Shown in pieces: positions 30,914-61,355 of a DNA stretch of 64,000 bases (position 1 is the first letter of the stretch; each line of letters begins with the position of its first letter). Where the stretch lies: assembly GCF_031454135.1 (NCBI RefSeq), contig NZ_JAVDQF010000001.1, positions 2,046,001 through 2,110,000 of the forward strand. Direction: 5' to 3'. The notes below the pieces were generated by a model. It saw only the letters and a program-made list of their open reading frames with translations, was not told the origin of the DNA and ran no database searches. Position numbers and translations under genes: made by a program. Source of the stretch: Arthrobacter russicus. Its GTDB lineage: Bacteria > Actinomycetota > Actinomycetes > Actinomycetales > Micrococcaceae.

Positions 30914-32895
30914 GCGTGGAGACATCCTTGAATGAAGCCCTGCTGAGCATTCCGGCCTGGATCGTCACGATTGGCCTTTTCGCCTTCAGCGCCGGATTTC
31001 TGGCTCGGCGGCTGCTCGGCGTGCCTATCGGCTGGCCGCGTTCGATCGTCGTCGGATTGATCGTCTACGCCGCCGGGGCCCCGGTGGCGACCCTCTTCGC
31101 CTCGACCTCGGGGTTGAGCGCCGGCACTGAACTGTCTCCGTCCGCCCTGGGCGCAGCCGCGCTGATCGTGGTGCTGTCCTTCGCCTGGGCTTTTGCCTTC
31201 GGCATCGGGCTTCTGGTCCTGGTCGAAGTGCTCTGGCCCACCGGATCCATTCCCACGCCCTTGGCTTACTTCCGGGCCCGGCGCGCGTCCAAGGCCCGCC
31301 GCCGGCGTTACTTCCGGGTGGCCGCCCTGGCGATCCGGAATGGACTGCTGCGCCCGGTCGGCGCCCGCGCCATCCAGTCGGGGACCCCGGAGGCCACACG
31401 CACTGCCCGGGCGCTGGCCAAAACCTTGAACCAAGCGGGCGTGAGCTTCATCAAACTCGGCCAGACAATGTCCACCCGGGCAGATATGCTCCCTGCGGAA
31501 TATATTTCCGAACTGTCCGTGCTGCAGACCCGGGCGGAGCCGGAGAACTGGACGGATCTGGAACCGGCCCTGGCCGCCGCCCTCGGCGCTCCTGTGGACC
31601 AGGTATTCGCCTCGGTCAGCACCGAACCGCTCGCCTCGGCATCGGTGGCGCAAGTGCATGCTGCGGTACTGCCGAACGGGGACGCCGTCGTGGTCAAAGT
31701 GCAGCGTCCGCAGGCGTTGGCCCAAGTCACTGTGGACCTGGACATCATCGAACGGTTCGCAGGGACTCTGGAAAACCGCACCGGCTGGGGCAAAGCCCTC
31801 GGCGTCAAGGCGCTGGCGAGCGGATTCGCCGATTCGCTGCGTGAAGAACTCGACTACACCGCCGAGCTGGAGAGCATGCGGACGATTGCCTCCGGCGCTT
31901 CCACGATCCGGATTCCGACGGTCTACCCCGAGCTCTCCTCGAAGCGGGTTCTGGTGATGGAAAGGCTCGACGGCGTGCCACTCGGCGAAGCCGATTTCAG
32001 TGCGGTTCCGGCGCCGGAGCGGCAACGCCTGGCGGAGTCCTTGCTGCGCGGCGTGCTGGCCCAGGTAGTGGTCTCCGGAGTGTTCCATGCGGACCTGCAC
32101 CCGGGGAACATCTTGCTGCTGGCCTCCGGCGAACTGGCGCTGCTGGACTTCGGATCGGTGGGCAGGCTCGGCAAGGACACCCGGACTTCGTTGGCCGGCT
32201 TCCTGGTTGCGGTCAAGGCTGAGGACAATGTGGCGGCGGCCGAGCGATTGCTGGAAATGCTGGATCCACCCCCGGAGCTGGATCGGAGGCAGTTCGAACG
32301 GGATCTGGGCGTGCTGCTCACCTACCTGGGCGGATCGACGTCGTCCTTGGTGACCCGGCTGTTCCGTCTGGTCCAGCAGCACGCGCTGGGTGTACCGGCT
32401 CAGCTTGCCGCCGCACTGCGGGCAATCGGGGCGCTGGAAGGTTCGATCAAGCTGATCGAGCCGGGCTTCGACGTGATCGCCGAGGCGCAGAAGCAGTCCT
32501 CGTCCTTGTTGGCCTCGATGTACTCAGCCGAGTCGTTGAAGCACCTGCTGGCCTCGAACGCGATCGGCCTGGTCTCCGCGTTGCAGCGGCTGCCGGGGAA
32601 TCTGAGCAGCTTGAGCGAGAAGATCGAACAGGGAACCCTGCAGGTGCGCGTCCGGCAGTTCTCCGATGCCGGCGACCGGAGCTTCCTGACCTCCTTGGCG
32701 CACGAAGGGATCGTGGCGTTGATCGCAATCGCCGCGGTGATCGGCAGCATCGTGCTGGTGGGCCTCGACACCGGGCCGATGCTGGCGCCGAATCTGCGGC
32801 TGTATACGTTCTTCGGCTATACCCTGGCGCTTGGCGGCTTCGTGTTCGGACTGCGCACGCTGGTGCGGGCGTTCCGAGGCAAGCGCGAGCGCTAA
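30910..32895 (+). CDS. UbiB/ABC1 (AarF)-family atypical kinase, membrane-bound
   Basis: This 661-residue protein has three N-terminal transmembrane segments (residues 10-110), an ABC1 protein-kinase-like domain with KLGQTMSTRADMLPAEYI (the KxGQ motif), the Ala-rich loop ASASVAQVH, catalytic HADLHPGN and the metal-binding DFGSVGRLG, and two C-terminal helices. UbiB/COQ8 proteins are ATPases that support isoprenoid-lipid (quinone) metabolism. Translation is coupled to padR by an ATGA overlap, an unusual partner for this family. The kinase hallmarks are firm; the function here is not known. Confidence 0.87.
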   Translation: MSVETSLNEALLSIPAWIVTIGLFAFSAGFLARRLLGVPIGWPRSIVVGLIVYAAGAPVATLFASTSGLSAGTELSPSALGAAALIVVLSFAWAFAFGIGLLVLVEVLWPTGSIPTPLAYFRARRASKARRRRYFRVAALAIRNGLLRPVGARAIQSGTPEATRTARALAKTLNQAGVSFIKLGQTMSTRADMLPAEYISELSVLQTRAEPENWTDLEPALAAALGAPVDQVFASVSTEPLASASVAQVHAAVLPNGDAVVVKVQRPQALAQVTVDLDIIERFAGTLENRTGWGKALGVKALASGFADSLREELDYTAELESMRTIASGASTIRIPTVYPELSSKRVLVMERLDGVPLGEADFSAVPAPERQRLAESLLRGVLAQVVVSGVFHADLHPGNILLLASGELALLDFGSVGRLGKDTRTSLAGFLVAVKAEDNVAAAERLLEMLDPPPELDRRQFERDLGVLLTYLGGSTSSLVTRLFRLVQQHALGVPAQLAAALRAIGALEGSIKLIEPGFDVIAEAQKQSSSLLASMYSAESLKHLLASNAIGLVSALQRLPGNLSSLSEKIEQGTLQVRVRQFSDAGDRSFLTSLAHEGIVALIAIAAVIGSIVLVGLDTGPMLAPNLRLYTFFGYTLALGGFVFGLRTLVRAFRGKRER

Positions 32896-32981
32896 GCCAT
32901 CGACATGCATCCGGGCGAACAACTCTGACGTCCTCAGCACTGGAACGTACCTGGCTCCTGACCCGGCGCCGGTGACCGGCT

Positions 32982-34160
32982 TCAGTCGTCTTCCGCCGCA
33001 CCAGCCATGACCGCAGCCGGTGCCAAATAGCCGTTGGGGTCGAGGACCCAGCCCGCCGCCCGTGCTGCGGTGACTACTTCGGGAGCCCACTCCAAACGGA
33101 CTCGACCATCACCGGGATTGATCACCAGGACTTCCCCGGTACCCTCGGTGGCTGCCGAGCTGCCAGCTTCGAGGCAGCGCAGTTCACGCCATACGTCCGC
33201 TGGAACCGACAAAGAATCCGAAGGGCCCAGCTCCACCGCCGAGCCTCCGTCCGCGTCAAGCGTCACGAGCCATCGCCCGCTCTTGACCAGCACAACTTGG
33301 GGGCGGTCATGACGGTGGCGCAGCAGGCCTTCCGCGGGCCGCGCCCGCAACCAAGCGATGTTAAAACTGTGCGGCTCATGAATCGGCGGAACCTGGCGGC
33401 GGTCTTCAGACATGCCATAGCCAATGGCCAGGCTGAGTTCGGCACCGCCGGCGGGCAGGCCGTTGCAAAGAAGTCCCCGGCGACTGTAAACCCGGTCATT
33501 GGGTTGCACCACTCGAGAACGCATGTCTTCGGCAGAATAATCGGTCAATTCGTCGATGTATTCCTGCTCCATCGGCTTGATCAAGGCAACGTCCGTCGGA
33601 AGCGTGTCGCCGGCAACCGTGTCGATGAGGCGATTGTCCGCGGTCAGGTGAAGCCCATAAGATTCCGCCTCCCGCAGCACCGATGGACCCCAGATGATTC
33701 CGCCGGTCTCATCGTGGCCGAGCACGGTGTAAAGTATCCCCTCGTCCGAGCCTTCATTGGTGAATCCCCGGAAAATCCAAGTGGGTATCGAGACAATATC
33801 TCCGTCTTTGGCAATATATTCTCCCTGTTTCCCGTCGACCCCCCAACGCAGTCTGAATTCACCGCCCAGGTTGATGAAAACCTCAGCTGTGAAGTGCAGA
33901 TGCAAATTGTTGCTGATCCCTCGTGGCATTCCGGCGGCACCGGTATTGAAGCCGTGGGGCTCCGCCAAATTTACGTATTGATTGGGATTCTGCGAAACGC
34001 CGGGTCCGACGAAGGCGTAATTCTCTTTCTGATCGGAACCCGGAGTACGGCAGTCGATGAATGCCGCGTTGCAGGCCACCCAGTCCGCGCGGCGAATCGT
34101 TCGACGTGCAATTTCGGCGCTGTCGAGGCGCCCTTCGGGACGGTTGATGAGATTGCTCAT
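32982..34160 (-). CDS. Double-cupin protein of the LacI-controlled catabolic cluster
   Basis: This 392-residue soluble protein consists of two cupin barrels. The first carries a metal-type motif NNLHLHFTAEVFINLGGEF (about residues 84-102); the second has RHRHDRPQVVLVKSG. The two-barrel layout is like that of quercetinase- or gentisate-type enzymes and sugar isomerases of the cupin group, but I cannot assign a reaction. It is 35 bp downstream of the SnoaL-like gene, with AAGGACC before its ATG, and ends the operon started by operator 35218-35236. It is convergent with the UbiB-like gene. Confidence 0.75.
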   Translation of the reverse strand: MSNLINRPEGRLDSAEIARRTIRRADWVACNAAFIDCRTPGSDQKENYAFVGPGVSQNPNQYVNLAEPHGFNTGAAGMPRGISNNLHLHFTAEVFINLGGEFRLRWGVDGKQGEYIAKDGDIVSIPTWIFRGFTNEGSDEGILYTVLGHDETGGIIWGPSVLREAESYGLHLTADNRLIDTVAGDTLPTDVALIKPMEQEYIDELTDYSAEDMRSRVVQPNDRVYSRRGLLCNGLPAGGAELSLAIGYGMSEDRRQVPPIHEPHSFNIAWLRARPAEGLLRHRHDRPQVVLVKSGRWLVTLDADGGSAVELGPSDSLSVPADVWRELRCLEAGSSAATEGTGEVLVINPGDGRVRLEWAPEVVTAARAAGWVLDPNGYLAPAAVMAGAAEDD

Positions 34161-34195
34161 AATGGTCCTTCCTTGAATTCTGGTCAGTGAATCGA

Positions 34196-35176
34196 TCAGT
34201 AAATATTCGCGTTGGGCTCCGGCCCATCGCCACGTGCGGCGTTGATTTGCGCACGCACCGCAATGTCATCCCACAACTTGATTTCTCGGGAGATCCGTCC
34301 ATCGTGGAACAGGAACTGCGAGATGCCCAGGATTTCCACGGGACTACCGGTGGTTGCGCCGAAGCGCGCCCTTCCGTTATAGGCGCCGGTGAATTTCCAA
34401 GTCACTGCAATGCGCAGGCCCCCATATCGGACCGCGTCCTGGGTCTGAATGTCGCGGACCTCAAACTGCCCAGAGGGGAATGCGTCGAGGAAGTGCAGCA
34501 ATCGCCGCCGGTACCCCTCCGGCCGGATGACCAGCTCATTGCCGATGGTGTGCAGGGTGAGGTCCCTCAGGAAAAACTCATCGACCTGTTTCAGGTCCCG
34601 GTCGTTCCAGACTTGTTGAATCATTGCCAGAACAATCTCGACTTCTCTGCGGTAATCGTCCGGTCGGGGACCAGAATCCCCGGCGGCAATGACATCCACT
34701 GGTCCGGGTTGCGCAAATGAACCGGTGTAACCGCGAAAACTCTTGGTTCGTGCCACTTCGCTCGGGTCGAGGCCCAGGGCCAAGGTCTGTGCAAGTTCAT
34801 CACGGACAACCCATTCTTCGACCATCCTGCCCCGTCGGTAAAGGCAATTGGCAATCGTTTTACCCACCACCTTGTAACCGGTTTCGCCGGAGAGCACCAG
34901 GTGCGAACTGAGGAATGCATCATTGCCACGCGCTTCCCAAACCACATCGCCTGCTTGTCCGATGTGTTCGGGTGCGTCCGAGATTCGCATCAGGCATCCC
35001 TCGATGACTTCCTGGCGCGAGGTCGAAGTACCGTACGAGCCGTGCACGATTGAATTCGGCTCATAGTTCTCCCGGATGAACCCGATCTGGCGTTCGACCC
35101 AAATGAGGTCGGTGACCTCCCGGATGAAATCGTCAGGATTCTGGTATGGGTGATAGGCAACCGGATCGAGGGGCAT
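34196..35176 (-). CDS. Tandem SnoaL/NTF2-like protein
   Basis: The 326-residue protein is made of two SnoaL-like (NTF2-fold) halves, each opening with the helix that precedes IWVERQIGFIRENYEPNSIVHG or MIQQVWNDRDLKQVDEFFLRD, followed by barrel strands. SnoaL-like proteins catalyse cyclisation, isomerisation or hydration of polyhydroxylated substrates. It is the first gene of a two-gene operon with the double-cupin gene. A promoter (TTGCAA-17-TACACT) with a LacI operator inside lies 42 bp upstream. Confidence 0.75.
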   Translation of the reverse strand: MPLDPVAYHPYQNPDDFIREVTDLIWVERQIGFIRENYEPNSIVHGSYGTSTSRQEVIEGCLMRISDAPEHIGQAGDVVWEARGNDAFLSSHLVLSGETGYKVVGKTIANCLYRRGRMVEEWVVRDELAQTLALGLDPSEVARTKSFRGYTGSFAQPGPVDVIAAGDSGPRPDDYRREVEIVLAMIQQVWNDRDLKQVDEFFLRDLTLHTIGNELVIRPEGYRRRLLHFLDAFPSGQFEVRDIQTQDAVRYGGLRIAVTWKFTGAYNGRARFGATTGSPVEILGISQFLFHDGRISREIKLWDDIAVRAQINAARGDGPEPNANIY

Positions 35177-35217
35177 ACTTGCTCGCTTTCGGCGGACAGA
35201 AACTAGCGGACACGATT

Positions 35218-35246
35218 AGTGTATGCGTATGCAATTATGCTTGCAA
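35218..35246 (-). promoter_or_regulatory. LacI operator A and promoter of the SnoaL-cupin operon
   Basis: On the minus strand AATTGCATACGCATACACT (plus 35218-35236) is one of four copies of the same operator. It fills the spacer and the -10 of a promoter: TTGCAA (plus 35241-35246), 17 bp, TACACT (plus 35218-35223). Confidence 0.7.
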
Positions 35247-35275
35247 GGATATCCCTGGCCCCGGTCACGAACTGC

Positions 35276-36271
35276 TTAGGAGATACTGCCCAGCGTGTCT
35301 CGGACAACCAGCTCGGATCGGAATTTGCATTGCTCCACAGGCCGATCGGGCTCTTCGATGCGTCGGACCAAAAGATCCGCCGCCCGGCGCACCATTGCCT
35401 CCAAATCGAAGGACACCGTAGTCAACCGGATGATCGGCCACGAAGCGGCAGGCAAATCGTCGAACCCGATAATCGACACATCTGCCGGGACCTCGGCCCC
35501 GATGCAGCGGGCCGCATTGAGCGCACCGAAAGCGACAACGTCATTCCCACAGACAATGGCCGTCGGTGGCTGCGCCGCCTCCAACAGGGCTCGCGTCGCG
35601 GTGAACCCGGTCATCGTGTCGAAAGGACCCCGATGCACGTACTCGGCGGAAAGCGAAATGCCATGCCGGGCGAGGGCTTCCCGCAAGGCAAGTTCGCGGC
35701 CGACTCCGGTACTGGTATCAGCAGGGCCGAAGATGGCGGCGATCCGTCGATGCCCGCGCTCGAAGAGGGCGTCCGCCATTTGGACCATCCCGGGAATCGG
35801 ATCAACCTCCGCCGAATCCGCTTGAACGGACGAGGACGTGCGGTTGAAGTAGACGAAAGGGAGTTCACGGTCGCGTAGCCGCAACGGCACCACCGAATCG
35901 ACCTTCGAAGTCGCCAAGAGGACCCCGTCCAGGCCGTTGGAAATGAGGCGTTCGGCAACAGTCTCGGTATCCACTGCCTCCGTGTGCAGCATCAGCTGAT
36001 AGCCGCGCGACTGGAGCTGTTCATGGGCAGGCGCGATGATGTGCGAATAGAACTGATTCTCGAGGTCGGTCAGCAACAGGCCGATCCGGCGCGTGCGACC
36101 ACTGGAGAGCGCGCGCCCCGCCTCACTCGGAACGTAGCCCAGTCGCTCGGCAGCTTCTCTAATCCGCTTCTTCGTCGCTTGGGACACTCGCGGATCGTCG
36201 CGCAAGGCGCGCGAAACCGTCGGTTGTGAAACACCGGCCAAGCGTGCGACATCACGGCTCGTGACGACCAT
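35276..36271 (-). CDS. LacI-family regulator of the HisD/aldolase catabolic cluster
   Basis: The 331-residue protein has the LacI helix-turn-helix and hinge at its N-terminus (VTSRDVARLAGVSQPTVSRA, then RIGLLLTDLENQFYSHII) and a periplasmic-binding-protein-like sensor domain. It is divergent from the first HisD-like gene, and lies between the SnoaL-cupin operon and the dehydrogenase operon. Four copies of one palindrome near TGCATACGTATGCA stand before the surrounding transcription units, including its own divergent region, which makes it the likely repressor of the whole cluster. The inducer is unknown. Confidence 0.88.
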   Translation of the reverse strand: MVVTSRDVARLAGVSQPTVSRALRDDPRVSQATKKRIREAAERLGYVPSEAGRALSSGRTRRIGLLLTDLENQFYSHIIAPAHEQLQSRGYQLMLHTEAVDTETVAERLISNGLDGVLLATSKVDSVVPLRLRDRELPFVYFNRTSSSVQADSAEVDPIPGMVQMADALFERGHRRIAAIFGPADTSTGVGRELALREALARHGISLSAEYVHRGPFDTMTGFTATRALLEAAQPPTAIVCGNDVVAFGALNAARCIGAEVPADVSIIGFDDLPAASWPIIRLTTVSFDLEAMVRRAADLLVRRIEEPDRPVEQCKFRSELVVRDTLGSIS

Positions 36272-36320
36272 CTGTCCCTCCTGAAGATTGGGCGTGCGAA
36301 GTTTATCAGGTGCTTAGCCC

Positions 36321-36367
36321 TTGACCTCTACAGATCCAATTCATAGAATCTTGCATACGTATGTCTG
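36321..36367 (+). promoter_or_regulatory. LacI operator B and sigma-70 promoter of the hisD1-SDR-aldolase operon
   Basis: TTGACC (36321-36326), 17 bp, TAGAAT (36344-36349) is a good promoter. The operator CTTGCATACGTATGTCT (36350-36366) begins immediately after the -10 and covers the expected transcription start, a classic repressor position. Confidence 0.8.
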
Positions 36368-36384
36368 TCTAGTAAGGAGAGTCC

Positions 36385-37719
36385 ATGGTTCAGCACTTGA
36401 AACATGCGTCGTCCAAATCGTTCGCCGACACCGGCCACACGGAAGTGGCGGATCGGGTTCGACAAATCATCACCGAGGTAAGAAGCGAGGGCGACAAAGC
36501 CGTCCGCAAATACGCCGAACTCTTCGACCGGCAGACTGCGGCCTCGTTCCGGGTCCCCGAAGCCCACATCGCAGAAATCATGGACACCCTCGATCAGCAA
36601 ATCATCGATGACATCGTTTTTGTCCAGGACCAGGTCCGCACTTTTGCCAGGGCGCAAAGAGCCTCCATGCAGGACGTCGAAATCGAAACCCTTCCCGGCG
36701 TCTTCCTCGGACACCGGCATATTCCGGTACAGGCCGTAGGTTCATACATTCCGGGCGGGAAGTATCCCTTGACTGCCTCGGCGCACATGACGATCATCAC
36801 CGCAAAGGTAGCCGGAGTGCCTCGCGTCGTGGCATGCACGCCACCAATCCGAGGCGAAGTCCCAGCGGCGACCATCGCCGCGATGAAGCTCGCCGGCGCG
36901 GACGAAATCTACCTCCTGGGCGGCGTGCAGGCTGTGGCCTCGATGGCACTCGGCACCGAGTCGATGGAACGGGTCGATATGATCGCGGGCCCCGGAAACG
37001 CTTACGTCGCTGAGGCCAAACGCCAGCTGTTCGGCGAAATCGGTATCGATCTGTTCGCCGGACCGACTGAAATCCTGATCATCGCCGACGCCGACGCCGA
37101 CCCGTTTCTGATCGCGGTAGACCTCCTGTCCCAGGCAGAGCACGGCCCTGATTCCCCCGCGATTCTGGTCACCACCTCGGCTCGGCTCGGCCAATGGGTT
37201 CTCGAATACATCGAACGGATCCTCCCGGGCATGCCCACCAAGGACTTCGCTGAACCGGCTTGGCGCGACTGGGGCCAAGTCATCGTCGTGGATGACCTGG
37301 ATCAGGCGTATGCCTTGGGCAATCGGCTTGCTGCCGAGCACGTCCAGGTATTCACTGCCGACCCGGCGGCCGCCCTGATGAAAATGCACAATTACGGTGC
37401 CCTCTTCCTGGGCGAGAACACCTGCGTCTCGTACGGCGACAAGGTCATCGGCACCAATCATGTGCTGCCCACGCTCGGAGCCGCCCGGTATACCGGTGGA
37501 TTGTGGGTTGGAAAGTTTCTCAAGACCGCCACATATCAATACATTGAAAACCCGGTTTCGGCCGCGGAGCTCGGTCGGGTTTGCGGCCGGGCGGCCAGGG
37601 TGGAGCTGTTCGATGGGCATGCCCGTGCGGGGGATGTGCGCGCTTGGCGGCATGGGGGCGACGACTTCGACTGGATAACGCAAGCACTGGCAGATGCGCC
37701 GAGGGGGTCGGGAAAATGA
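36385..37719 (+). CDS. HisD-family polyol/sulfopropanediol-type dehydrogenase, copy 1
   Basis: The 444-residue protein has the histidinol dehydrogenase fold. All metal and catalytic positions are kept: Gln250 and His253 (SQAEHG), Glu318-His319 (AAEHV), Asp352 (YGDKVIGTNH) and His412 (DGHAR). It is not in a his operon and matches the branch that includes sulfopropanediol 3-dehydrogenase (HpsN), which oxidises a primary alcohol to a carboxylate in two NAD-dependent steps. AAGGAG precedes the start; the ATG at 36385 is the first in frame after the operator. It overlaps the SDR gene by ATGA. Substrate unknown; a polyol-like or hydroxy-acid compound is likely. Confidence 0.82.
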   Translation: MVQHLKHASSKSFADTGHTEVADRVRQIITEVRSEGDKAVRKYAELFDRQTAASFRVPEAHIAEIMDTLDQQIIDDIVFVQDQVRTFARAQRASMQDVEIETLPGVFLGHRHIPVQAVGSYIPGGKYPLTASAHMTIITAKVAGVPRVVACTPPIRGEVPAATIAAMKLAGADEIYLLGGVQAVASMALGTESMERVDMIAGPGNAYVAEAKRQLFGEIGIDLFAGPTEILIIADADADPFLIAVDLLSQAEHGPDSPAILVTTSARLGQWVLEYIERILPGMPTKDFAEPAWRDWGQVIVVDDLDQAYALGNRLAAEHVQVFTADPAAALMKMHNYGALFLGENTCVSYGDKVIGTNHVLPTLGAARYTGGLWVGKFLKTATYQYIENPVSAAELGRVCGRAARVELFDGHARAGDVRAWRHGGDDFDWITQALADAPRGSGK

Positions 37720-38474
37720 CCCGTCTGACCGGACGAACCGCTTTGATCACCGGAGGCGGTACCGGACTCGGCGCGGCGATCGCCCGCGCGCTGCACGGAG
37801 CCGGTGCCAAGGTGGTGCTCGCCGGCCGCCGGGCCGAACCCGTCCGCAAGCTCGCGGAGGTATTCGGCGAACGTGCAGACTGGCGGACCGTGGATGTGGC
37901 CGACGCCGGTTCAGTAGCCAGGCTCGAAGCCACCTTGCGGGAGCAGGAGATCTCGATTCTGGTGAACAACGCCGGAGTGGCCGGTCCGGTCGCGCCGATG
38001 ATCGACATCTCGGTCGATGAATGGGATGAAGTTTTCGGCATCAACGTGCGCGGCACTTTCCTCATGTGCCAGGCGTTCCTTCCCGCCATGGTCCGACGCG
38101 GTGCCGGGGACGTGATCAACCTGGCTTCGGTCTCCGGTAAACGACCCTTGATTCGACGCACCCCTTACTGCGCCTCGAAGATGGCCGTCATCGGCCTCAG
38201 CTCCACACTGGCCTTCGAAGTAGGATCGGCCGGAATCAAAGTCAATACGCTTTCCCCGGGCCCGGTGGAAGGACCCCGGATGGAGCGCAATTTCAGACTC
38301 GAGGCGCAGTGGAGCGGCACCAGTTATGAAAGCGCGATGGAGGCCTTTGTGTCACGTTCTGCGCTCGGTCGGATGGTGACCGAAACCGAGGTCGGCGCCG
38401 CAGTGCTGGCGATGTTGGGCATGCCCGGCTTGTCCGGTGCGGACGTGGACCTTTCCGCGGGGATGATCGCATGA
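37716..38474 (+). CDS. Short-chain dehydrogenase/reductase (SDR)
   Basis: This 252-residue classical SDR has the Rossmann motif TGGGTGLG (residues 12-19), NNAG (84-87), Ser138/Ser140, and the catalytic YCASK (Tyr151, Lys155). It oxidises or reduces a hydroxyl with NAD(P)H. It is translationally coupled to the HisD-like gene before it and the aldolase gene after it by ATGA overlaps. In this context it probably oxidises a secondary alcohol of the same substrate, setting up the aldol cleavage. Confidence 0.88.
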   Translation: MTRLTGRTALITGGGTGLGAAIARALHGAGAKVVLAGRRAEPVRKLAEVFGERADWRTVDVADAGSVARLEATLREQEISILVNNAGVAGPVAPMIDISVDEWDEVFGINVRGTFLMCQAFLPAMVRRGAGDVINLASVSGKRPLIRRTPYCASKMAVIGLSSTLAFEVGSAGIKVNTLSPGPVEGPRMERNFRLEAQWSGTSYESAMEAFVSRSALGRMVTETEVGAAVLAMLGMPGLSGADVDLSAGMIA

Positions 38475-39235
38475 ACGGCCAGCGGAGATCCTTGCGCCAG
38501 CGAGTACTGGCCGGAGAGCGCGTCTGCGGTGTGCTGCTGCGGATTCCAGCCGAGGAGCTCGTCGAAATGCTCGCCGTCGCCGGCTTCGATTTTATTCTGA
38601 TCGACTGCGAACATGGCCCGGCCGATGTGGTGGCTCTGCGGCAGCACATCGCCGCTGCGGCAATGCACGGCGTCGACGTCCTGGTCCGTGTCGGCACCGG
38701 AGAAGAGGCACTGATTCTGCGCTCATTGGACCACGGAGCGACAGGGATCGTGGCACCACATGTGGATAGCCCAGCCCAGGCGGCACAATTGGTCGCGGCG
38801 ACGCACTACCCGCCGCATGGGCACCGTGGTTTCGCCACCTACGGCCGTTCCGGCCGTTACGGCGGAGTGGACGCCGCGGCACACCAATCCAGGCTCGCAG
38901 CCGAGACTCTGGTGATCGCCATGGTCGAATCCCCCACCGCAGTGGCGGCGGTTGCGGAGATCGCGGCCGTTCCGGGCATCGACGGAATCATGCTCGGCGC
39001 CGCAGACCTGGCCGCCTCAAGCACCCCGGAGCAGCTTTCCCTGTTGGAATCCCGAGGCCGGGTCAATGCGGCCCTGGCTGCGGCCGGTTCGCTGCGGCTG
39101 GACCTCGTCGGCGATGCCGAGGCGGCAGCGGCGGCCTATTCCGACGGGGCGCAAATGGTTGCATACAACCTGACGCAAGTGCTCATGAGGCAATTCGCGG
39201 GACTGCTGGCGCCAAGACCTGCAGATGCCCGGTGA
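38471..39235 (+). CDS. HpcH/HpaI-family aldolase
   Basis: The 254-residue class II aldolase fold carries the expected residues: His48 (CEHGP), Arg73 (LVRVG), and metal ligands Glu153 (MVESP) and Asp179 (LGAADLA). Family members cleave 2-keto-4-hydroxy acids to pyruvate plus an aldehyde, for example 2-keto-3-deoxy-L-rhamnonate or 4-hydroxy-2-oxoheptanedioate. It ends the hisD1-SDR-aldolase operon. Its TGA is followed directly by the reversed stop of the convergent hydrolase gene (TGA|TCA), with no intergenic base and no terminator. Confidence 0.87.
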   Translation: MNGQRRSLRQRVLAGERVCGVLLRIPAEELVEMLAVAGFDFILIDCEHGPADVVALRQHIAAAAMHGVDVLVRVGTGEEALILRSLDHGATGIVAPHVDSPAQAAQLVAATHYPPHGHRGFATYGRSGRYGGVDAAAHQSRLAAETLVIAMVESPTAVAAVAEIAAVPGIDGIMLGAADLAASSTPEQLSLLESRGRVNAALAAAGSLRLDLVGDAEAAAAAYSDGAQMVAYNLTQVLMRQFAGLLAPRPADAR

Positions 39236-39967
39236 TCAGCGCGCCCACTGCTTGATCAACCGGCCCACTTCACCGGGGCGCTCCATCGGAACGACGTGTC
39301 CGGCCCGTACGGACGCCAGTTGCGCCCCCGGAATGATTGCCGCAATAGCCTGATGGAATACCGGGGGACAAATGACGTCCGCCGTTCCGGATATCAGCAA
39401 AACCGGCATCCGGAGCAGGCCGAGCGTCCGCGATTCGTCGATCCGGCTCTCTTGCATTTGGAGCTGGGCGTCCAGTTGCCCGGCTCCGATGTGGTCGGCC
39501 ATCCGGAGCAACCGGTCAGCAATATCGGGATCCCGCAACCGGGCTGGCTCGCTCGACAAGGCACTGAGGATGCCTTGTTGCAGGCTGTAAGGCGTCTCTG
39601 CAGCAGCCAGCCGATCGCGCCAGGACTGCCAACCGGCACGCTGGGCAGGCGTCGGCGCTTTCGCATTGGTGGACATGAGGCACAGCCGAGCCACCCGCTC
39701 TGGGGCGCGCCGGCACAGCGACATAGCGACTACCCCACCGAGCGAGAAGCCGACCAAGGCGAAGCGCCGGGGCAGGCTGTCGAGCAATCGGTCGACTTGC
39801 CGGTCGACCGTCGTTTCCGCGAGCGCCGGTGTGATCGCACCGACCAGCCCGCACCCGGTCCAAAGATCCGGAGTGCAGTTCATTCCGGGCAGGAGAACCA
39901 GCGGTTCGCCGGAGACGGCGGAGTCGCAGAGCCGGTCCTTGTCCATTGTGGGCAAGAATCGGCTCAT
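39236..39967 (-). CDS. Alpha/beta hydrolase
   Basis: This 243-residue hydrolase has nucleophile motif GFSLGG (Ser75), acid Asp197 (SGTADVI) and His224 (RAGHVVPME). It is likely a cytoplasmic esterase or lactonase. It is the last gene of the operon binding protein-permease-permease-hydrolase, and its ATG overlaps the stop of the second permease (ATGA). A role in opening an ester or lactone taken up by the importer is plausible. Its stop abuts that of the convergent aldolase gene. Confidence 0.83.
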   Translation of the reverse strand: MSRFLPTMDKDRLCDSAVSGEPLVLLPGMNCTPDLWTGCGLVGAITPALAETTVDRQVDRLLDSLPRRFALVGFSLGGVVAMSLCRRAPERVARLCLMSTNAKAPTPAQRAGWQSWRDRLAAAETPYSLQQGILSALSSEPARLRDPDIADRLLRMADHIGAGQLDAQLQMQESRIDESRTLGLLRMPVLLISGTADVICPPVFHQAIAAIIPGAQLASVRAGHVVPMERPGEVGRLIKQWAR

Positions 39968-40845
39968 CCTTTGACCGCACCGTCGCTCAACCCGGCAACG
40001 AGGTACTTCTGGGCAATAAAGGCGATCGCGATTACCGGCAGCGTCAGCAGCATCGCCGCCGCACCGGCCTGCTGCAGCATCGGAAGAGTCTGTCCGAGCT
40101 GTGTGGTGATGAATACCGGCACTGTTTTGGATGACGTATCGGTGAGCACGAGCGCAGTCAGATATTCCTGGAACGCCAAAAGGAAGACGAAAATCCCGGC
40201 GGTGAGGATGCCGGGACGCAGCAATGGGATCATCACCCGGCGGAGCATGCTCAACCGGGTGCAGCCATCGATCATCGCCGCTTCATCGAGTTCCTTCGGG
40301 ATCTCCGCGAAGAAGTTCCGCAGAAGCCAGATGGTGAACGGCTGATTGATCGCAACCAGGGCCGCTGCCAAAGCGAAACTCGTGTCGTATATCCCGAGCG
40401 CCTTGCTGATCTCGTACATCGGCAACACCACCGAAAAACGCGGCAGTGACCGAAAAATGAGCGCGATGATCAACAGGATCGCCGAAACATAGCCAGGATA
40501 ACGCGACAAGGCATAAGCAGCCGGAATGCCGATCACCAACGCCACGACCGTGGACATCACCGCAACCATGATGGTGTTCACCAGGTACTCGGCAAAATAC
40601 GTGGTTTCCCAGAGGTCGACAAAAGCTTCGAACGTCGGGGTGTAGCCCGTGAAGACCGGCGGGTTGGCGAAGGCCACATCGGTCGGTTTAGTCACCGACA
40701 AGGCGGTCCAGATAAAGGGGGCGAGCATCAGTAAGGCCATCAGGCTAAGCAGTAAAACCGAACCACGACTCCTTTTGCGGCCTGGGCTGCCGGTCCTTTT
40801 GCCCTTGAACCCGGCCGTCTTGGCGGTAGCGGTATGGATACTCAT
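39964..40845 (-). CDS. Carbohydrate ABC transporter permease, MalG type (LacI cluster)
   Basis: This 293-residue membrane protein has six predicted helices and the EAA loop DEAAMIDGCTRLSMLRRVMIP. The N-terminal 28 residues are strongly basic. It overlaps the first permease gene before it and the hydrolase gene after it by ATGA, so all are translated together. It is the second channel subunit of the cluster importer. The ATPase must come from elsewhere. Confidence 0.88.
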   Translation of the reverse strand: MSIHTATAKTAGFKGKRTGSPGRKRSRGSVLLLSLMALLMLAPFIWTALSVTKPTDVAFANPPVFTGYTPTFEAFVDLWETTYFAEYLVNTIMVAVMSTVVALVIGIPAAYALSRYPGYVSAILLIIALIFRSLPRFSVVLPMYEISKALGIYDTSFALAAALVAINQPFTIWLLRNFFAEIPKELDEAAMIDGCTRLSMLRRVMIPLLRPGILTAGIFVFLLAFQEYLTALVLTDTSSKTVPVFITTQLGQTLPMLQQAGAAAMLLTLPVIAIAFIAQKYLVAGLSDGAVKG

Positions 40846-41714
40846 GCGCGCACCTTCGCTTCTTTGAGGAGTCCCCGGATGAACGGGAACAGGCAGATGA
40901 GGATGAGGAGAATCGCCAGTACATTGATCGCACTGCCCAGACCAAGCTGTTCCGACCCGTCACGGAAGGCCACATCGTAGATATAGAGCATGATCGACTC
41001 ATTGCCGATGGCATCGGCTTGCGGGGAGAGCGGGATGAGATTGTCGAACGTACGAAGTACGTCCATGATCGTAATCAGGCAGACGAAGCCGAGGATTCCA
41101 CGGATCGCGGGGATGATGACATAACGGTGGGTCTGCCACGGCGAGGCCCCGTCGATCTTCGAGGCCTCGCGCAATTCGGCCGGCACACCTTGGAGCGCAG
41201 CAAGGATCATCAGCATAGAAAACGGAAGCAGATGCCACACCGTATTCGCGATCACCATGATTCGGTTGGGCCAGGTTTCGGTAAACCAGAGCAGTTCAGC
41301 ACCAGTCAGCGAACGGACGATTCCACTCACCACCCCGCCGAAGTTCTGATCGAACAACCAGGAAAACGAAACCGCTCCGACGATGTTCGGCAACACATAG
41401 GAGACGAGCATTGCCCCCAAAATCACCGGCTGGAGCCGGCCGAGGCGGTTCATTCCAGTTGCCACGAGATACCCGAGGACTAGAATCATGACGGTCACGA
41501 CGGTGGTGATCAGCAGCGTGAAAAACACTGCCCGGCCAAATCGCGGATCGGACAAAGCCGAACTGAAGTTCCCCAAGCCGATGAATTCCCCGGGCTCACC
41601 GTACTGAACCTTTTGGAAGCTCCACTGAATGGTGCGGATCAGCGGGACTACCAGCAGTCCGAACATCACCAGCAGACTGGGTCCGATCAACAGGGCGAAT
41701 TCGCGTCGTCGCAT
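40842..41714 (-). CDS. Carbohydrate ABC transporter permease, MalF type (LacI cluster)
   Basis: This 290-residue membrane protein has six predicted helices and the EAA-like loop REASKIDGASPWQTHRYVIIP. The ATG at 41714 lies 6 bases after AGGAA, which makes it a better start than the GTG two codons upstream. It is about 95 bp downstream of the binding-protein gene and overlaps the next permease gene. It forms the import channel with that gene product. Confidence 0.87.
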   Translation of the reverse strand: MRRREFALLIGPSLLVMFGLLVVPLIRTIQWSFQKVQYGEPGEFIGLGNFSSALSDPRFGRAVFFTLLITTVVTVMILVLGYLVATGMNRLGRLQPVILGAMLVSYVLPNIVGAVSFSWLFDQNFGGVVSGIVRSLTGAELLWFTETWPNRIMVIANTVWHLLPFSMLMILAALQGVPAELREASKIDGASPWQTHRYVIIPAIRGILGFVCLITIMDVLRTFDNLIPLSPQADAIGNESIMLYIYDVAFRDGSEQLGLGSAINVLAILLILICLFPFIRGLLKEAKVRA

Positions 41715-41809
41715 CGTCACTTCCTATCTATGAAGTCTCTGCAAGAACTTGAGTGCACTGATTAGCCACCGACCAAGCGGGACTCATTCCGGTTCCGGTA
41801 GAACGCCGC

Positions 41810-43129
41810 TCAGCGCCGGCCGGATATCGCACGTTCTGCGAGGTCTTGCATCTGAATCAGGCCGACCGGCACCTCGACCTGCCCGGTGATGATCTGCACC
41901 AGGACCGGGCGGATGGCGTTGCTCACCGCGGCCATCTCGGATTGACCGATTGCCGGCATGGTCTTGGCTATGGTGTCGATTGCCGCGGTGGCGTACTTCG
42001 AGCTGTCCGGACTCACCGTGTCCTCCCGGGCCGGGTAAGCAGCAGGCACCGCCGCCTTGGAAGCTTCCTCGCTGATCGAAGCTGCCATCATCTGGAACAA
42101 CATGTCTTTGTCCAACGTGGTGTTTTTGGGTATCGACCAGCCATCGATCGACAATCGGCTGTACAGATAGGGAGCCCCAGCCTCGATCGCAGGCGAGGCC
42201 GCGAAGCCGAACTGGCCGGACAACTTGCTATTGGCCGGGAGCGTGAGGTCGTTCATCCGGCCAGAAAACATGATCCCCATGGCAGCGGTGCCATTGAACA
42301 TCTGTTGCTGCACTTTGGGCTGGTCAAACGTGGTGACCTGCGGGTCCATGTATGGAAACAGCGACCGCATTCCCTCTAATGCCCGACTCGCTTCATCGGA
42401 ATCAAACTGCACTCTGCCCGACGGATCGATGAAATCCTTGCCCAACGAATTCATCGCCGCTTGGTAATGAGTGGTGACATCGGCGGTGGCCAGCCAAGGC
42501 AAGGCGATCGGGTATCTGATCCCGCCGATGGTTTGGATTGCCTTAGCCGACTCGATCATCTCCGCAAAATTCGTGGGGGGCTTCAGGCCCAGTGAATCAA
42601 AGACATCCGTCCGGTAGGCAAGTACGAACATCTGGGCCTGCATCGGCAGAGCATAGAGTTTTCCGTCGAAGGACAGTCCTTCTCGCATCGCGGCATTGAG
42701 CTCGTTGAGCTTGTATCTGTCCGAGTACTTGGCGACCAAGTCATCCAGTGGTTCGAGTTTGCCATTGTCGGCCAGTCCGGGGAGCACGAATCCATAAGTT
42801 TCCAAGATGTCGTAGCTGCCTTCATCCCCGGCCAAGGTTGCCGTGGTCTTGGTCACCTGGCCCGCGAAATCGATCGGATCGTGTTTGAGTGTGACGCGGT
42901 CACGACTGCAACTCTTCACCATGGTGTTGGTGAAAGGGTCGATCGCGGAGGAGTTGTAAGCCAGGACGTTCACCGTGGTCGACTGGGTGGGCATGGTGTA
43001 CCCGCATTCGACCGCGGTCGCATTCTGCGCTCCCACCCGCGAGGCGGCCCCGCATCCGGCAAGCGCCAAGACGCTTGCGACCATCGCCAAGCCGGCAGTC
43101 CCTTTCCGTACGACAGAAGTGTGTAGCAT
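41810..43129 (-). CDS. ABC transporter substrate-binding lipoprotein of the LacI cluster
   Basis: This 439-residue extracytoplasmic binding protein has a lipoprotein signal ending in LAGC (Cys26). GAGGGGG lies before the ATG at 43129; the open frame continues to 43303 across the operator and is not coding there. It has the general layout of family 1 sugar-binding proteins, with the stretch LYALPMQAQMFVLAYRTDVFDSLG typical of them, but it is not close to a type I can name. The upstream operator copy indicates LacI control. The substrate is therefore that of the HisD/aldolase pathway. Confidence 0.82.
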   Translation of the reverse strand: MLHTSVVRKGTAGLAMVASVLALAGCGAASRVGAQNATAVECGYTMPTQSTTVNVLAYNSSAIDPFTNTMVKSCSRDRVTLKHDPIDFAGQVTKTTATLAGDEGSYDILETYGFVLPGLADNGKLEPLDDLVAKYSDRYKLNELNAAMREGLSFDGKLYALPMQAQMFVLAYRTDVFDSLGLKPPTNFAEMIESAKAIQTIGGIRYPIALPWLATADVTTHYQAAMNSLGKDFIDPSGRVQFDSDEASRALEGMRSLFPYMDPQVTTFDQPKVQQQMFNGTAAMGIMFSGRMNDLTLPANSKLSGQFGFAASPAIEAGAPYLYSRLSIDGWSIPKNTTLDKDMLFQMMAASISEEASKAAVPAAYPAREDTVSPDSSKYATAAIDTIAKTMPAIGQSEMAAVSNAIRPVLVQIITGQVEVPVGLIQMQDLAERAISGRR

Positions 43130-43158
43130 GAATCCCCCTCCAAAGGCAGTTCCCGGGT

Positions 43159-43172
43159 GCAGACAAGTCTGC
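43159..43172. promoter_or_regulatory. Palindrome GCAGAC-AA-GTCTGC in the binding-protein leader
   Basis: A perfect 6-bp-arm palindrome lies 30 bp upstream of the start codon and about 20 bp downstream of LacI operator C. It could be a second regulator site or a small leader hairpin. Confidence 0.35.
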
Positions 43173-43186
43173 ATCGATAAACCCTT

Positions 43187-43205
43187 AACACATGCGTATG
43201 CAATT
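43187..43205 (-). promoter_or_regulatory. LacI operator C upstream of the importer genes
   Basis: On the minus strand AATTGCATACGCATGTGTT (plus 43187-43205) matches operator A at 16 of 19 positions. It lies about 60-75 bp before the binding-protein start, so the importer operon can be controlled separately from the HisD2 gene upstream. A convincing promoter hexamer pair was not found around it. Confidence 0.7.
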
Positions 43206-43232
43206 CCTGGTCGAGCAATTGTCCGTCTAATC

Positions 43233-44564
43233 TTAGGTCCTTCGACCACGCACCAGATCAAGGCGCAATTGGGCGCTGTCCCGGTGGGCCGGCATTTGTT
43301 CAAAATCCGAAATCACCACAGTCGGGCCGGCCTGGATTTCGGTCGCCTCACGGGTTGCCCGCTGGTAAGTCAGCTGCTTGAGGAACCGGGCAACCGAGAG
43401 CCCCCCGGTATACCGGGCTCCGCGACCGGTAGGCAGCACATGATTGGTCCCGGACATTCCCTTATCCGCATACGCCACGGTCGACCACTCACCAAGAAAC
43501 AATGACCCGTAGTTACGCAGATTCTGGAGGTAGTAGTCCGGATCCTCGGTCAGGATCTCCAAATGCTCCGGGGCGAGAAGATCCATGACTTCAACCGCGG
43601 TCCGCGGCGAATCCACCAAGTAGATCGACCCCCAGTCGCGCCACGAGGCTCCCGCGACTTCCCGTGTCGCCAAGCCGGAAAGCTGCTGTTGGATCTCCCG
43701 CTCGACGTCAGCCGCCAACCTCGCCGAAGTGGTCACCAGGCAGGCGGGCGAGGTCGGACCGTGTTCGGCCTGGGCTAGGAGATCTGCCGCCACCATGGCT
43801 GCATTGGCTTGCTCGTCGGCGATTACTGCCACCTCCGATGGCCCCGCCAGTACATCAATCCCAACCCTCCCATGGAGCTGCCGCTTCGCCTCCGCCACAA
43901 AAGCGTTCCCGGCGCCGACCAACATGTCAGCAGGATCGGCGTCGAGCAATCCGAAAGCCATGGCCGCCAGCGCCTGCACGCCACCAAGTGCGAAAATCCG
44001 CTCCGTTCCGGATATCTGTGCAGCGTAAAGTACGGCCGGATGTACCTGCCCGTTCCGCGACGGCGGTGTGCAGGAAAGCACCTTCGACACCCCCGCGGCT
44101 CGCGCCACCCCAACCGTCATAAAGGCACTGGCCAGCAAGGGGAACCGGCCGGCCGGCAAGTACGCCCCCACCGTTTCCACCGGGACGTAGCGTTGTCCGC
44201 AGTGCACGCCAGGGACGACTTCGGCTTCGAAATCGCTCAACCGGTCGCGCTGCATCCGGGCAAAGTTGCCGGTACGCTCGGAGCCGGCATCGAGCGCCTC
44301 GCGCAATTCGACGGGAAGTTCGGCTACCAGACGCTCGGCGGCTTTCGGGGTGATCTCGAAGTCGGTCCCCCCGGTCCAACCATCGAGTTCCGAAGCATAC
44401 TCCCGGACCGCATCCAGGCCCCGGGCTTCGATGGCGGAAAGCATCTCGGAGACCCTGGAAATGACGCCGGGATCGGCCTGTGCCGGCACATCTGGACGAT
44501 TCGGCTCGCGGACCGCGGTAACGTTGCCGGAAAGGCGAATTTTGTCTTTCAGCGTCAAATGCAT
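43233..44564 (-). CDS. HisD-family polyol/sulfopropanediol-type dehydrogenase, copy 2
   Basis: This 443-residue protein is a second HisD-like enzyme with all key residues: Gln265, His268 (AQAEHG), Glu333-His334 (APEHL), Asp367 (YADKG) and His427 near the end (MPAHR). It is clearly diverged from copy 1, so it probably acts on a different intermediate or stereoisomer; it too is closer to the HpsN-type branch than to biosynthetic HisD. The start ATG lies within a LacI operator and has no ribosome-binding site, while a promoter ends 6 bases upstream, so the mRNA is probably leaderless. About 100 bp separate it from the binding-protein gene. Confidence 0.82.
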   Translation of the reverse strand: MHLTLKDKIRLSGNVTAVREPNRPDVPAQADPGVISRVSEMLSAIEARGLDAVREYASELDGWTGGTDFEITPKAAERLVAELPVELREALDAGSERTGNFARMQRDRLSDFEAEVVPGVHCGQRYVPVETVGAYLPAGRFPLLASAFMTVGVARAAGVSKVLSCTPPSRNGQVHPAVLYAAQISGTERIFALGGVQALAAMAFGLLDADPADMLVGAGNAFVAEAKRQLHGRVGIDVLAGPSEVAVIADEQANAAMVAADLLAQAEHGPTSPACLVTTSARLAADVEREIQQQLSGLATREVAGASWRDWGSIYLVDSPRTAVEVMDLLAPEHLEILTEDPDYYLQNLRNYGSLFLGEWSTVAYADKGMSGTNHVLPTGRGARYTGGLSVARFLKQLTYQRATREATEIQAGPTVVISDFEQMPAHRDSAQLRLDLVRGRRT

Positions 44565-44600
44565 ACGTATACTATATGTGACTCACCTAACATTAAGCAA
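44558..44600 (-). promoter_or_regulatory. LacI operator D overlapping a leaderless promoter of hisD2
   Basis: TGCATACGTATAC (plus 44560-44572) is the fourth operator copy and contains the ATG of hisD2. Upstream on the minus strand are TTGCTT (plus 44595-44600), 18 bp, and TATAGT (plus 44571-44576). The -10 ends 6 bases before the ATG, so transcription should start at the A of the start codon. Confidence 0.65.
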
Positions 44601-44725
44601 GAGATGTCCGCACATTCCTAACGGGGTGGCTACGGGGTCGCACGACGACCGGGCAGGGCCTTCTCCGGCTGGCGCCCCCGGCGCAACGCAGGGTCGATTC
44701 TCTTGCTGAACTGGGAGGGGAAGTG

Positions 44726-44760
44726 CCTTGCCCGCAGCGTCAGAGACGCTGCGGGCAAGG
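44726..44760 (-). terminator. Hairpin terminator after the papain-like protease gene
   Basis: CCTTGCCCGCAGCGT (44726-44740) pairs exactly over 15 bp with 44746-44760 around a 5-base loop. It lies 27 bases after the protease stop on the minus strand. No T-run follows, but the stem is strong. Confidence 0.7.
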
Positions 44761-44786
44761 GTTCACTTGCCGAGGGTGGCCGAAAC

Positions 44787-45677
44787 CTAGTTGGCCGCCA
44801 AGGAGTTCATCGAATTGACCTCGTCGACGTCGCTTCCGGTGACCCAGGACCACGGTGCGGTAAAGAACCCGCCGTCGCCCCAGTTGGTGCCCCAGCTGTT
44901 CTCCACGGTCACCCCATCGGCGTCGTATCCGATGATGGTCACTTCATGCCCGGCATTGGGAATCAGATTTCCCTGCGCCGGATCGTAGTAGGAGTTGTTC
45001 GAGTCCAGATCATTGAAGTTGTCCCGGACCGAGAACCCGACGGCTACCGGGTGACCTTGCGAAATCGCCGACTTCACCGCAGTTTGGCGATCACTATTGG
45101 TCAGATCGGTGAAGCTGCCCAGTTTGTAGTTCAGCGCGTTCTTCTTCTGCGCGGCACTGGGCAATGTCTTGTAGTTGGTGGTGCCCTGCGAGTAATCGGA
45201 CTGGGTGTCGATGCCGCGGGACTTCTCCATCGGGAGCGCCACCGAAGCGAACGTCCCGCTGTCCTGGCCGTTGTTGTTCTCCTTCACGATCTGCGAGTAG
45301 ATGAACATCGGCGCCATCGGCGCGCCACTGCGGCCAGCCTCGTTCATCAGGATCCCATAGCCGCTGTAACCGGTGGCCCAGGTGACGCAGGAGCCCACTT
45401 GGCCCTGGTCCCCCGGGGACAGTGCATAGTCTTTGAGCGAATAGGAGTCCGGGGCGGCAATCGCCGGGCTGGACTCGAAGCTGGCCCGCTCATTGCCGGT
45501 CTTGGCGTGGTGCGCCCGGGCCGCTGCGATGTCGAAACCCATGCCGTGCACTTCGCCCGAGGAATCGGTCACCGTGCCGGGGACCACCGGTGCGGCCTGT
45601 GCCAGCCCGGCGCCGGAAGCGAGCGTGAAAGCGGCCGTCGCTACGGCCAGAGCTGAGAAAAACCCACGTTTGTTCAT
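44787..45677 (-). CDS. Secreted papain-family (C1) cysteine protease
   Basis: The 296-residue protein has an N-terminal Sec signal peptide (MNKRGFFSALAVATAAF..., cleavage near AQAAP), a short proregion, and a papain-like catalytic domain. The oxyanion Gln91, nucleophile Cys97 (QGQVGSCVTWA), His244 (NAGHEV) and Asn260 in ENSWGTNWGDGG are all present. It should be exported and active outside the cell. C1 proteases of this type are uncommon in bacteria. It stands alone on the minus strand, behind the two-component operon, 150 bp after the response regulator gene, and ends in a strong hairpin. Confidence 0.87.
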   Translation of the reverse strand: MNKRGFFSALAVATAAFTLASGAGLAQAAPVVPGTVTDSSGEVHGMGFDIAAARAHHAKTGNERASFESSPAIAAPDSYSLKDYALSPGDQGQVGSCVTWATGYSGYGILMNEAGRSGAPMAPMFIYSQIVKENNNGQDSGTFASVALPMEKSRGIDTQSDYSQGTTNYKTLPSAAQKKNALNYKLGSFTDLTNSDRQTAVKSAISQGHPVAVGFSVRDNFNDLDSNNSYYDPAQGNLIPNAGHEVTIIGYDADGVTVENSWGTNWGDGGFFTAPWSWVTGSDVDEVNSMNSLAAN

Positions 45678-55388: not shown

Positions 55389-55454
55389 TGCACTAGTCTG
55401 CCACCAGTGCAGCAGCAACATCGTGTCCCCGCTGCCGTGCGGTTTCCGGCCGGG

Positions 55455-61307: not shown

Positions 61308-61355
61308 GGACGTCCTCCTTGACGTGACAGGGTTCAAATCGACCGGCTGGATCGA

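Follow-up and report, generated by a model that had tools for sequence, protein, structure and literature searches.

Several described systems resemble parts of the locus considered here, an 11.9-kb gene cassette of Arthrobacter russicus situated in a stretch of 64,000 nucleotides (the window; positions 2,046,001 to 2,110,000 of contig NZ_JAVDQF010000001.1, assembly GCF_031454135.1). The first is the catabolism of 2,3-dihydroxypropane-1-sulfonate (DHPS), encoded in the order LacI-hpsN-hpsO, in which the dehydrogenase HpsN has the fold of the histidinol dehydrogenase (HisD) family. His126 is the sulfonate-recognising residue that distinguishes DHPS dehydrogenases, as stated in PMC11382572. The second is histidinol dehydrogenase itself, and the third is the tetronate pathway OtnI-OtnK-OtnC. 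In the fourth, lumichrome catabolism, the lactonase LumW, the cupin hydratase LumY and the retro-aldolase LumX act in series to give pyruvate and acetoacetate, the cupin enzyme hydrating a dienedioate (PMC12746152).

The cassette encodes two HisD-like proteins (HisD1 and HisD2), a short-chain dehydrogenase/reductase (SDR), an HpcH/HpaI aldolase, an alpha/beta-hydrolase, a double cupin, a tandem SnoaL-like protein, a LacI-family regulator and components of an ABC importer. With the DHPS system it shares the HisD fold family, the zinc ligands, the catalytic Glu/His, Lys353, a partner SDR and a LacI neighbour; it differs in lacking His126, in adding the cupin, SnoaL, aldolase, hydrolase and a second HisD, and in having no recognised carbon-sulfur (C-S) lyase. 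Its HisD proteins score above the PF00815 and TIGR00069 cut-offs, as histidinol dehydrogenases do, but are separated from the other two HisD proteins of the genome by long branches and by Lys instead of Tyr at position 353, are 35% identical to one of these and lack his neighbours. The cupin-aldolase core occurs together with OtnK and OtnC in four relatives, three of them with OtnI as well, whereas the window has no Otn match and carries HisD1 and the SDR in their place. The likeness to LumW-LumY-LumX is one of description: the order of lactonase, cupin hydratase and retro-aldolase leading to pyruvate is similar, but LumY has a mass of 16 kDa, compared with a double cupin of 392 amino acids in the cassette, and LumW is a cobalt-dependent hydrolase, compared with a serine-type alpha/beta-hydrolase in the cassette (PMC12746152).

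The locus may be a mobile catabolic unit under LacI control whose substrate is a polyhydroxylated carboxylic acid with a terminal hydroxymethyl group, or a lactone, ester or amide of such an acid, a reading of the sequence to which we give an even chance.

The cassette and its distribution

The eleven predicted genes (open reading frames, ORFs, with Pfam matches) all lie within one unit of 11,900 bp, 32886-44785 (Table 1), and include every gene named in the original prediction. Apart from them and the last 10 bases of the ORF of the left neighbour, nothing else was recognised in the unit. Its G+C content is 60.9%, compared with 64.2% in the rest of the window. The gene of the solute-binding protein more likely starts at the ATG at 43129 than at the TTG of the ORF. 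The nearest solved relatives of this protein are 5iai and 4rya. No ATPase gene for the importer was found among the cassette genes; a shared ATPase is common in this importer group.

Table 1. Features of the cassette in window coordinates
Feature	Position	Strand	Remarks
Whole cassette	32886..44785		Absent from conspecific genome, 51 bp there instead (BLASTN)
Double cupin, 392 aa	32982..34160	-	H87xH89xxxE93 invariant; Arg131 at motif-2 His position
Tandem SnoaL-like protein, 326 aa	34196..35176	-	PF07366 64.6 bits, C-terminal half
Operator variant GTATGCGTATGC	35221..35232	+	46 bp upstream of snoaL
LacI-family regulator	35276..36271	-	PF00356 62.8 bits, PF13377 111.4 bits
Operator GCATACGTATGT	36353..36364	+	About 30 bp upstream of hisD1
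HisD1, HpsN-branch dehydrogenase, 444 aa	36385..37719	+	PF00815 465 bits
SDR dehydrogenase, 252 aa	37716..38474	+	PF00106 167 bits; chosen start overlaps hisD1 stop
HpcH/HpaI aldolase, 254 aa	38471..39235	+	PF03328 113.5 bits
Alpha/beta-hydrolase	39236..39967	-	Pfam match; S75, D197, H224 invariant
ABC permease (MalG-like)	39964..40845	-	PF00528 68.2 bits
ABC permease	40842..41720	-	PF00528 49.2 bits
Solute-binding protein (SBP)	41810..43129	-	PF01547 105.7 bits; start taken at ATG 43129
Operator-like GCATACGCATGT	43190..43201	-	Upstream of SBP gene; fourth site, a variant, by eye
HisD2, HpsN-branch dehydrogenase, 443 aa	43233..44564	-	PF00815 430 bits; ORF start overlaps operator
Operator GCATACGTATAC	44561..44572	+	At hisD2 start

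In a second genome of the species (G390, 98% complete), neither the cupin nor HisD1 found a match at the thresholds applied. Its contig L076 matches the window up to position 32885 (97.4% identity over 10,331 columns, BLASTN) and again from 44786 (98.4% over 8,888 columns), with 51 bp in place of the cassette. The cassette is a discrete unit that is missing from this conspecific, and gain here and loss in G390 are not distinguishable from the pairwise comparison alone. The cupin was found in 11 of 395 genomes of the family and in 4 of 296 genomes of the class, the organism's own genome being counted in both, and this scattered presence favours transfer. HisD1-like proteins (E<=1e-140) are present in 32 of the 395 family genomes, again including its own. 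In 10 of the 11 cupin genomes of the family a HisD1 of at least 68% identity is situated near the cupin. The two are associated more often than by chance (hypergeometric probability 3e-11, a value that ignores the relatedness of the genomes).

HisD1 and HisD2

The nearest solved relatives of HisD1 are the HpsN structures, with 346 bits compared with at most 278 bits for histidinol dehydrogenases. The HisD proteins of the cassette and its relatives were aligned in 64 rows, numbered on the annotated Cupriavidus HpsN. Setting aside HpsN itself, the two other HisD proteins of the genome and a truncated sequence (L032), 60 rows of the HpsN branch were counted. Gln248, His251, Glu318, His319, Asp352, Lys353 and His411 are kept in all 60, including both window proteins, in agreement with the earlier claim that these retain the metal and catalytic residues. 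His126 is missing from 59 of the 60 rows, again including HisD1 and HisD2. Where HpsN has the motif G-R-Y-A/S-H, HisD1 has GKYPL and HisD2 has GRFPL, and the branch as a whole mostly has G[KR][YF]P or a similar sequence. The only row with His126 (GRFTH) is a HisD relative from a Chloroflexota metagenome-assembled genome (L030), possibly a true HpsN.

The tree was computed from 63 rows, the truncated sequence being left out. HisD1 falls into a clade of 40 rows (support 100/99), HisD2 is found beside HpsN, which is on a long branch, and the other two HisD proteins of the genome (L001 and L002) are set apart by long branches with 100/100 support. HisD1, HisD2 and HpsN share 40 to 49% identity with one another, and the identity of both window proteins to one of the other HisD proteins of the genome is 35%. 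In these other two HisD proteins position 353 is Tyr and His126 is missing; they are taken as the canonical HisD on the strength of their sequences. One of their genes is downstream of an OB-fold reading frame and the other upstream of a reading frame for an E1-E2 (P-type) ATPase.

By alignment and tree, HisD1 and HisD2 are assigned to the HpsN branch. The TIGR00069 cut-off for histidinol dehydrogenase (243.8) is passed by both, with 448.4 and 430.3 bits. Nevertheless, the tree and Lys rather than Tyr at residue 353 led to rejection of a plain HisD identity. The ORFs and Pfam matches of the cassette show no other his genes beside either of them, in line with the original statement that neither is in a his operon. 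Judged by the published motif the two proteins are not DHPS dehydrogenases either, and they probably chelate their substrate through an acidic group other than a sulfonate, for which a carboxylate is the candidate.

The operator motif

Exact copies of the palindrome RYATACGTATRY are found at just two positions in the 3.8-Mb genome; both belong to the cassette, one at hisD1 and one at hisD2. The reversed motif, used as a control, has no match in the genome. When up to one mismatch is allowed, the pattern KNATACGTATNM is matched three times in the window, and each match falls within the cassette: one precedes snoaL, one precedes hisD1 and one is at the start of hisD2. The mean expected by chance in the window is 0.87, and at least three matches were obtained in 4 of 100 shuffles. 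The motif or its variant TATGCGTATGCA is also found at one or more units of related loci in Arthrobacter, Pseudarthrobacter, Specibacter, Nocardioides, Streptomyces, Gordonia polyisoprenivorans and Zhihengliuella, and at the HisD1 gene of one betaproteobacterial locus. It was not found at three loci that lack the cupin (L016, L017 and L019). The original prediction had placed the genes in one regulon, and as a sequence signature this holds, a common operator motif being present at the cassette promoters. The regulator that would bind the motif is the LacI protein encoded in the cassette.

Sister HisD genes (61-66% identity) in L020, L021, L022 and L024 have the same ATACGTAT operator and are found without the cupin, SnoaL or hydrolase genes. 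A LacI gene is close to the sister gene in L020, L022 and L024, and a hydrophobic protein follows it in L022 and L024. Identification of this membrane protein as GntP was dropped; the L022 protein has no Pfam match at 1e-6.

Recurrence in other bacteria

Relatives of the cassette were found in Actinomycetota, Pseudomonadota, Deinococcota and Bacillota. They were collected as 28 loci anchored on HisD1, 13 Actinomycete loci anchored on the cupin and 19 plasmid loci, some of which end at contig edges. Four of the cupin-anchored loci are probably on the same contigs as L005, L007, L027 and L029, and three plasmid loci (L038, L042 and L048) have no cupin in the stretch examined. The cupin is present in 16 of the 28 HisD1-anchored loci. 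All 16 also have SnoaL, SDR and LacI, and 15 of the 16 have the aldolase and 15 of 16 the hydrolase. SnoaL and the hydrolase are found in none, and the aldolase in one, of the 12 loci without the cupin, some of which are truncated. The 13 cupin-anchored loci all contain the aldolase, while hydrolase, HisD, SDR, SnoaL and LacI are each present in 12.

Largely the same set is carried on plasmids of Pantoea, Klebsiella (without SnoaL), Deinococcus, Priestia, Novosphingobium, Roseibium, Martelella, Alloyangia, Ruegeria, Marinovum (SDR not detected) and Octadecabacter. The plasmid versions vary in having an HpcH- or RraA-type aldolase and an ABC, TRAP or MFS transporter, and the cupins of Deinococcus and Priestia are only about 206 residues long. 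The smallest form (L067) has the order GntR-aldolase-cupin-hydrolase-MFS, with a gene for a zinc-type alcohol dehydrogenase further off on the other strand. The trio of cupin, hydrolase and aldolase would form the core of the cassette.

A MetE-like protein is added in three marine relatives and a betaproteobacterial one (L044, L041, L051 and L026); that of L044, the only one scanned, is Meth_synt_2. The Marinovum cluster adjoins genes annotated as functioning in dimethylsulfoniopropionate breakdown.

Exchange of HisD for OtnK and OtnC

In four loci, from Ensifer, Salinivibrio, Vibrio and Thioclava, the cupin and the aldolase, together with an annotated hydrolase, stand beside OtnK and OtnC, in three cases also beside OtnI, and no HisD was detected within these stretches. 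Only loci with the cupin were used for comparing the two arrangements, because the 28 loci had been picked by HisD1. The 13 cupin-anchored and 16 plasmid loci together comprise 24 with HisD and without OtnK, four with OtnK and OtnC and without HisD, one with neither and none with both. The 16 plasmid loci, all of which appear among the cupin matches, had been chosen from 52 cupin records, with the match lists for SnoaL (47 records) and HisD2 also in view, a choice that favoured best matches, annotated records and variety; L039, L040 and L041 were chosen with HisD2 matches in view. Because of this selection the Fisher probability of 2e-4, which also ignores relatedness, is indicative only.

The assignments were checked against NCBIfam equivalog cut-offs for the Salinivibrio, Ensifer and Thioclava proteins, the scan not extending to Vibrio. 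The Salinivibrio proteins pass for OtnK (560.7 compared with 350), OtnC (284.5 with 250) and OtnI (332.5 with 325), and the Ensifer OtnK passes with 456.2 compared with 350. Neither OtnK nor OtnC has a tblastn match in the window at 1e-5. The presence of OtnK and OtnC in the place of HisD points to a C4 hydroxy-oxo acid, and HisD with the SDR on the one hand and OtnK with OtnC on the other are read as two ways to handle the same C4 fragment.

Proposed pathway

The double cupin retains an invariant H87xH89xxxE93. A profile search of the PDB gave weak matches only, and among the best 50 rows of a structure comparison (VIA-align) bicupin enzymes and seed proteins have nearly tied Z scores. The Pfam match of the SnoaL protein is confined to its C-terminal half, though the two halves are related (hhalign probability 99.3 over 136 columns, alignment A2), which bears out its earlier description as a tandem protein. 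Its nearest solved relatives are of the ester cyclase, polyketide cyclase and SnoL types. Ser75, Asp197 and His224 of the hydrolase are invariant in 15 of 15 rows (alignment A3) and are read as a catalytic triad. The best solved matches of the hydrolase include esterases, and it scores below the cut-off of TIGR02427, the 3-oxoadipate enol-lactonase PcaD (78.1 compared with 255.85 bits). The aldolase exceeds the PF03328 cut-off (113.5 compared with 25 bits) and falls below that of TIGR02311, the 4-hydroxy-2-oxoheptanedioate aldolase HpaI (125.5 compared with 368.8 bits). Its His48, Arg73, Glu153 and Asp179, invariant in 15 of 15 rows, are presumably the counterparts of the catalytic residues of HpaI.

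Taken with the lumichrome precedent, the residues of the hydrolase and aldolase suggest that a lactone or ester is first opened, that the product is hydrated or isomerised, and that an aldol cleavage follows. The substrate would be taken in by the ABC importer. The hydrolase would open an ester or lactone, and the cupin would hydrate or isomerise the product to a 4-hydroxy-2-oxo acid, which the HpcH-type aldolase could cleave into pyruvate and a small hydroxy-oxo fragment at the tetronate level (a C4 hydroxy-oxo acid). HisD2 and HisD1 would both convert a primary alcohol adjacent to a carbinol, via the aldehyde, to the acid, transferring four electrons to NAD+. The chemistry would be that of HpsN on DHPS, with a metal-chelating group that is probably a carboxylate. 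The SDR would oxidise the neighbouring secondary alcohol, and the SnoaL protein may perform a further isomerisation, dehydration or lyase step. The order of import, hydrolysis, oxidation, rearrangement and aldol cleavage given in the original prediction is therefore retained as plausible, while its sulfo-polyol substrate is not. The TRAP binding proteins of two relatives, nearest to 4p47, 4p9k, 4pdh and 4nq8, count in favour of a polyhydroxylated acid; several of these structures we take to be binders of D-erythronate or pantoate.

Several observations weigh against this scheme. Fold families do not fix reactions, and the SnoaL protein is left without a definite step. Oxygenases, decarboxylases and seed proteins have tied Z scores among the folds nearest to the cupin, which therefore pick out no single reaction, and its predicted metal site is unusual in that the His of motif 2 is missing. 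The exchange with OtnK is based on four loci, two of them from Vibrionaceae and none from Actinomycetota; the Ensifer OtnC (240.8 compared with 250) and the Thioclava OtnI (279.2 compared with 325) are below the equivalog cut-offs, and a HisD relative is present at another place on the Ensifer plasmid. The operator motif was not found at two Actinomadura loci or at the Paracoccus locus. Lastly, the amidases and C-N hydrolases that recur among the relatives suggest a nitrogen-containing substrate, which the scheme does not cover.

Alternative substrates and roles

These enzymes are the basis of a different proposal, that the substrate contains an amide or amine on which amidases or C-N hydrolases act first, the HisD proteins then oxidising an amino-alcohol or the hydroxy acid released. 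An amidase is present in 7 of the 19 plasmid loci and a C-N hydrolase in 9 of the 28 HisD1-anchored, 5 of the 13 cupin-anchored and 1 of the 19 plasmid loci, and their genes often adjoin HisD2, the cupin or SnoaL. However, no such gene was found in the window, the best match in the genome to the C-N hydrolase of L027 has 35% identity, and none is present at L006 within the stretch examined; this proposal appears unlikely. The C-N hydrolases of L007, L008, L010, L011, L014, L015, L018, L027 and L029 are of the nitrilase superfamily and apparently fall into more than one sequence group.

It is distinctly improbable that the cassette serves a lower aromatic or lignin-type pathway, in which the hydrolase, cupin and aldolase would process a ring-cleavage product, SnoaL would act in the manner of a lignin lyase and HisD and the SDR would act on a side chain. 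HpcH/HpaI and RraA aldolases do serve aromatic routes, and the NTF2-fold lignin lyases offer a model for the SnoaL protein. Reading frames resembling VOC and FAH proteins were seen by eye near the HisD1 of L017. LumW, LumY and LumX serve an aromatic route as well (PMC12746152). However, no ring-cleaving or ring-hydroxylating oxygenase was recognised in the cassette, unless the cupin is one, and both the LacI regulator and the type of importer suggest ligands resembling sugars or polyols.

A sulfo-polyol degraded with the help of HpsN-type DHPS dehydrogenases is very unlikely to be the substrate. Among solved structures HpsN comes closest to HisD1, the HpsN row groups beside the HisD2 clade, albeit on its long branch, and the order LacI-hpsN-SDR is annotated in Cupriavidus. 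The proposal fails the main sequence test because His126, to which PMC11382572 assigns the recognition of the sulfonate, is missing, and it was rejected as the leading reading on this ground. As the original prediction had itself recorded, no C-S lyase is recognised among the cassette genes, and none was noticed in the annotated relatives viewed.

Carbon bookkeeping alone would allow a C7 ring compound with a hydroxymethyl-carbinol group, such as the core of gadusol or of mycosporine-type sunscreens, a speculation that carries very little probability. The amidase or C-N hydrolase of the relatives would cleave the vinylogous amide, and the MetE-like protein found in some of them would demethylate. 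Ring opening, with hydration or oxidation, would fall to the hydrolase and the cupin; cleavage of the tertiary aldol by the aldolase would then give pyruvate and 3-oxo-tetronate, to be taken by OtnK and OtnC to dihydroxyacetone phosphate. HisD1 and the SDR would bypass 3-oxo-tetronate by oxidising the hydroxymethyl group first. A literature search for mycosporine breakdown showed no such bacterial gene set among the papers listed. We know of no earlier one for gadusol or mycosporine sunscreens, and this would be the first.

That the cluster is biosynthetic or detoxifying is very improbable: SnoaL and bicupin families are known from biosynthesis, but the importer genes, the LacI-type regulator, the interchange with OtnK-OtnC and the pyruvate-releasing type of aldolase speak against it.

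Neighbouring genes

The gene at 44787-45677 (-), directly adjoining the cassette, encodes a cysteine peptidase of the papain family (C1), the N-terminus of which looks signal-like by eye; it is also present in the conspecific genome and is thus not a member of the cassette. Further away, the gene at 55455-62612 (-) encodes a protein of 2,385 residues that has a catalytic domain of the alpha-mannosidase family GH92 and also matches F5/8 type C and PKD. Pfam at 1e-6 gave nothing for the long ORFs opposite this gene (58137-61235 and 54921-57752), which are probably antisense artefacts.

Significance

The literature search, which was aimed at the gene set and at catabolic enzymes resembling HisD, returned the papers on DHPS and, among the papers listed, nothing on this cluster, subscription journals being mostly outside its scope. 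Within that literature the cluster is not described, in keeping with the original suggestion that no named pathway has the full set. The enzyme families of this catabolic cassette are known ones in a combination not found described, with two groups of the HpsN branch that, by the tests made, are neither HisD nor HpsN.

Histidinol dehydrogenase is the name routinely given to proteins of the HpsN branch: TIGR00069 is passed by both HisD1 and HisD2, and 28 of the 40 listed plasmid matches to HisD1 carry this annotation. Because two further groups of the branch exist, accompanied by a set of partners found repeatedly in four phyla, many genes named hisD are probably misnamed. The natural swap between HisD with the SDR and OtnK with OtnC narrows down the intermediate, and the compact, operator-marked form of the unit makes its inducer and its substrate open to direct tests.

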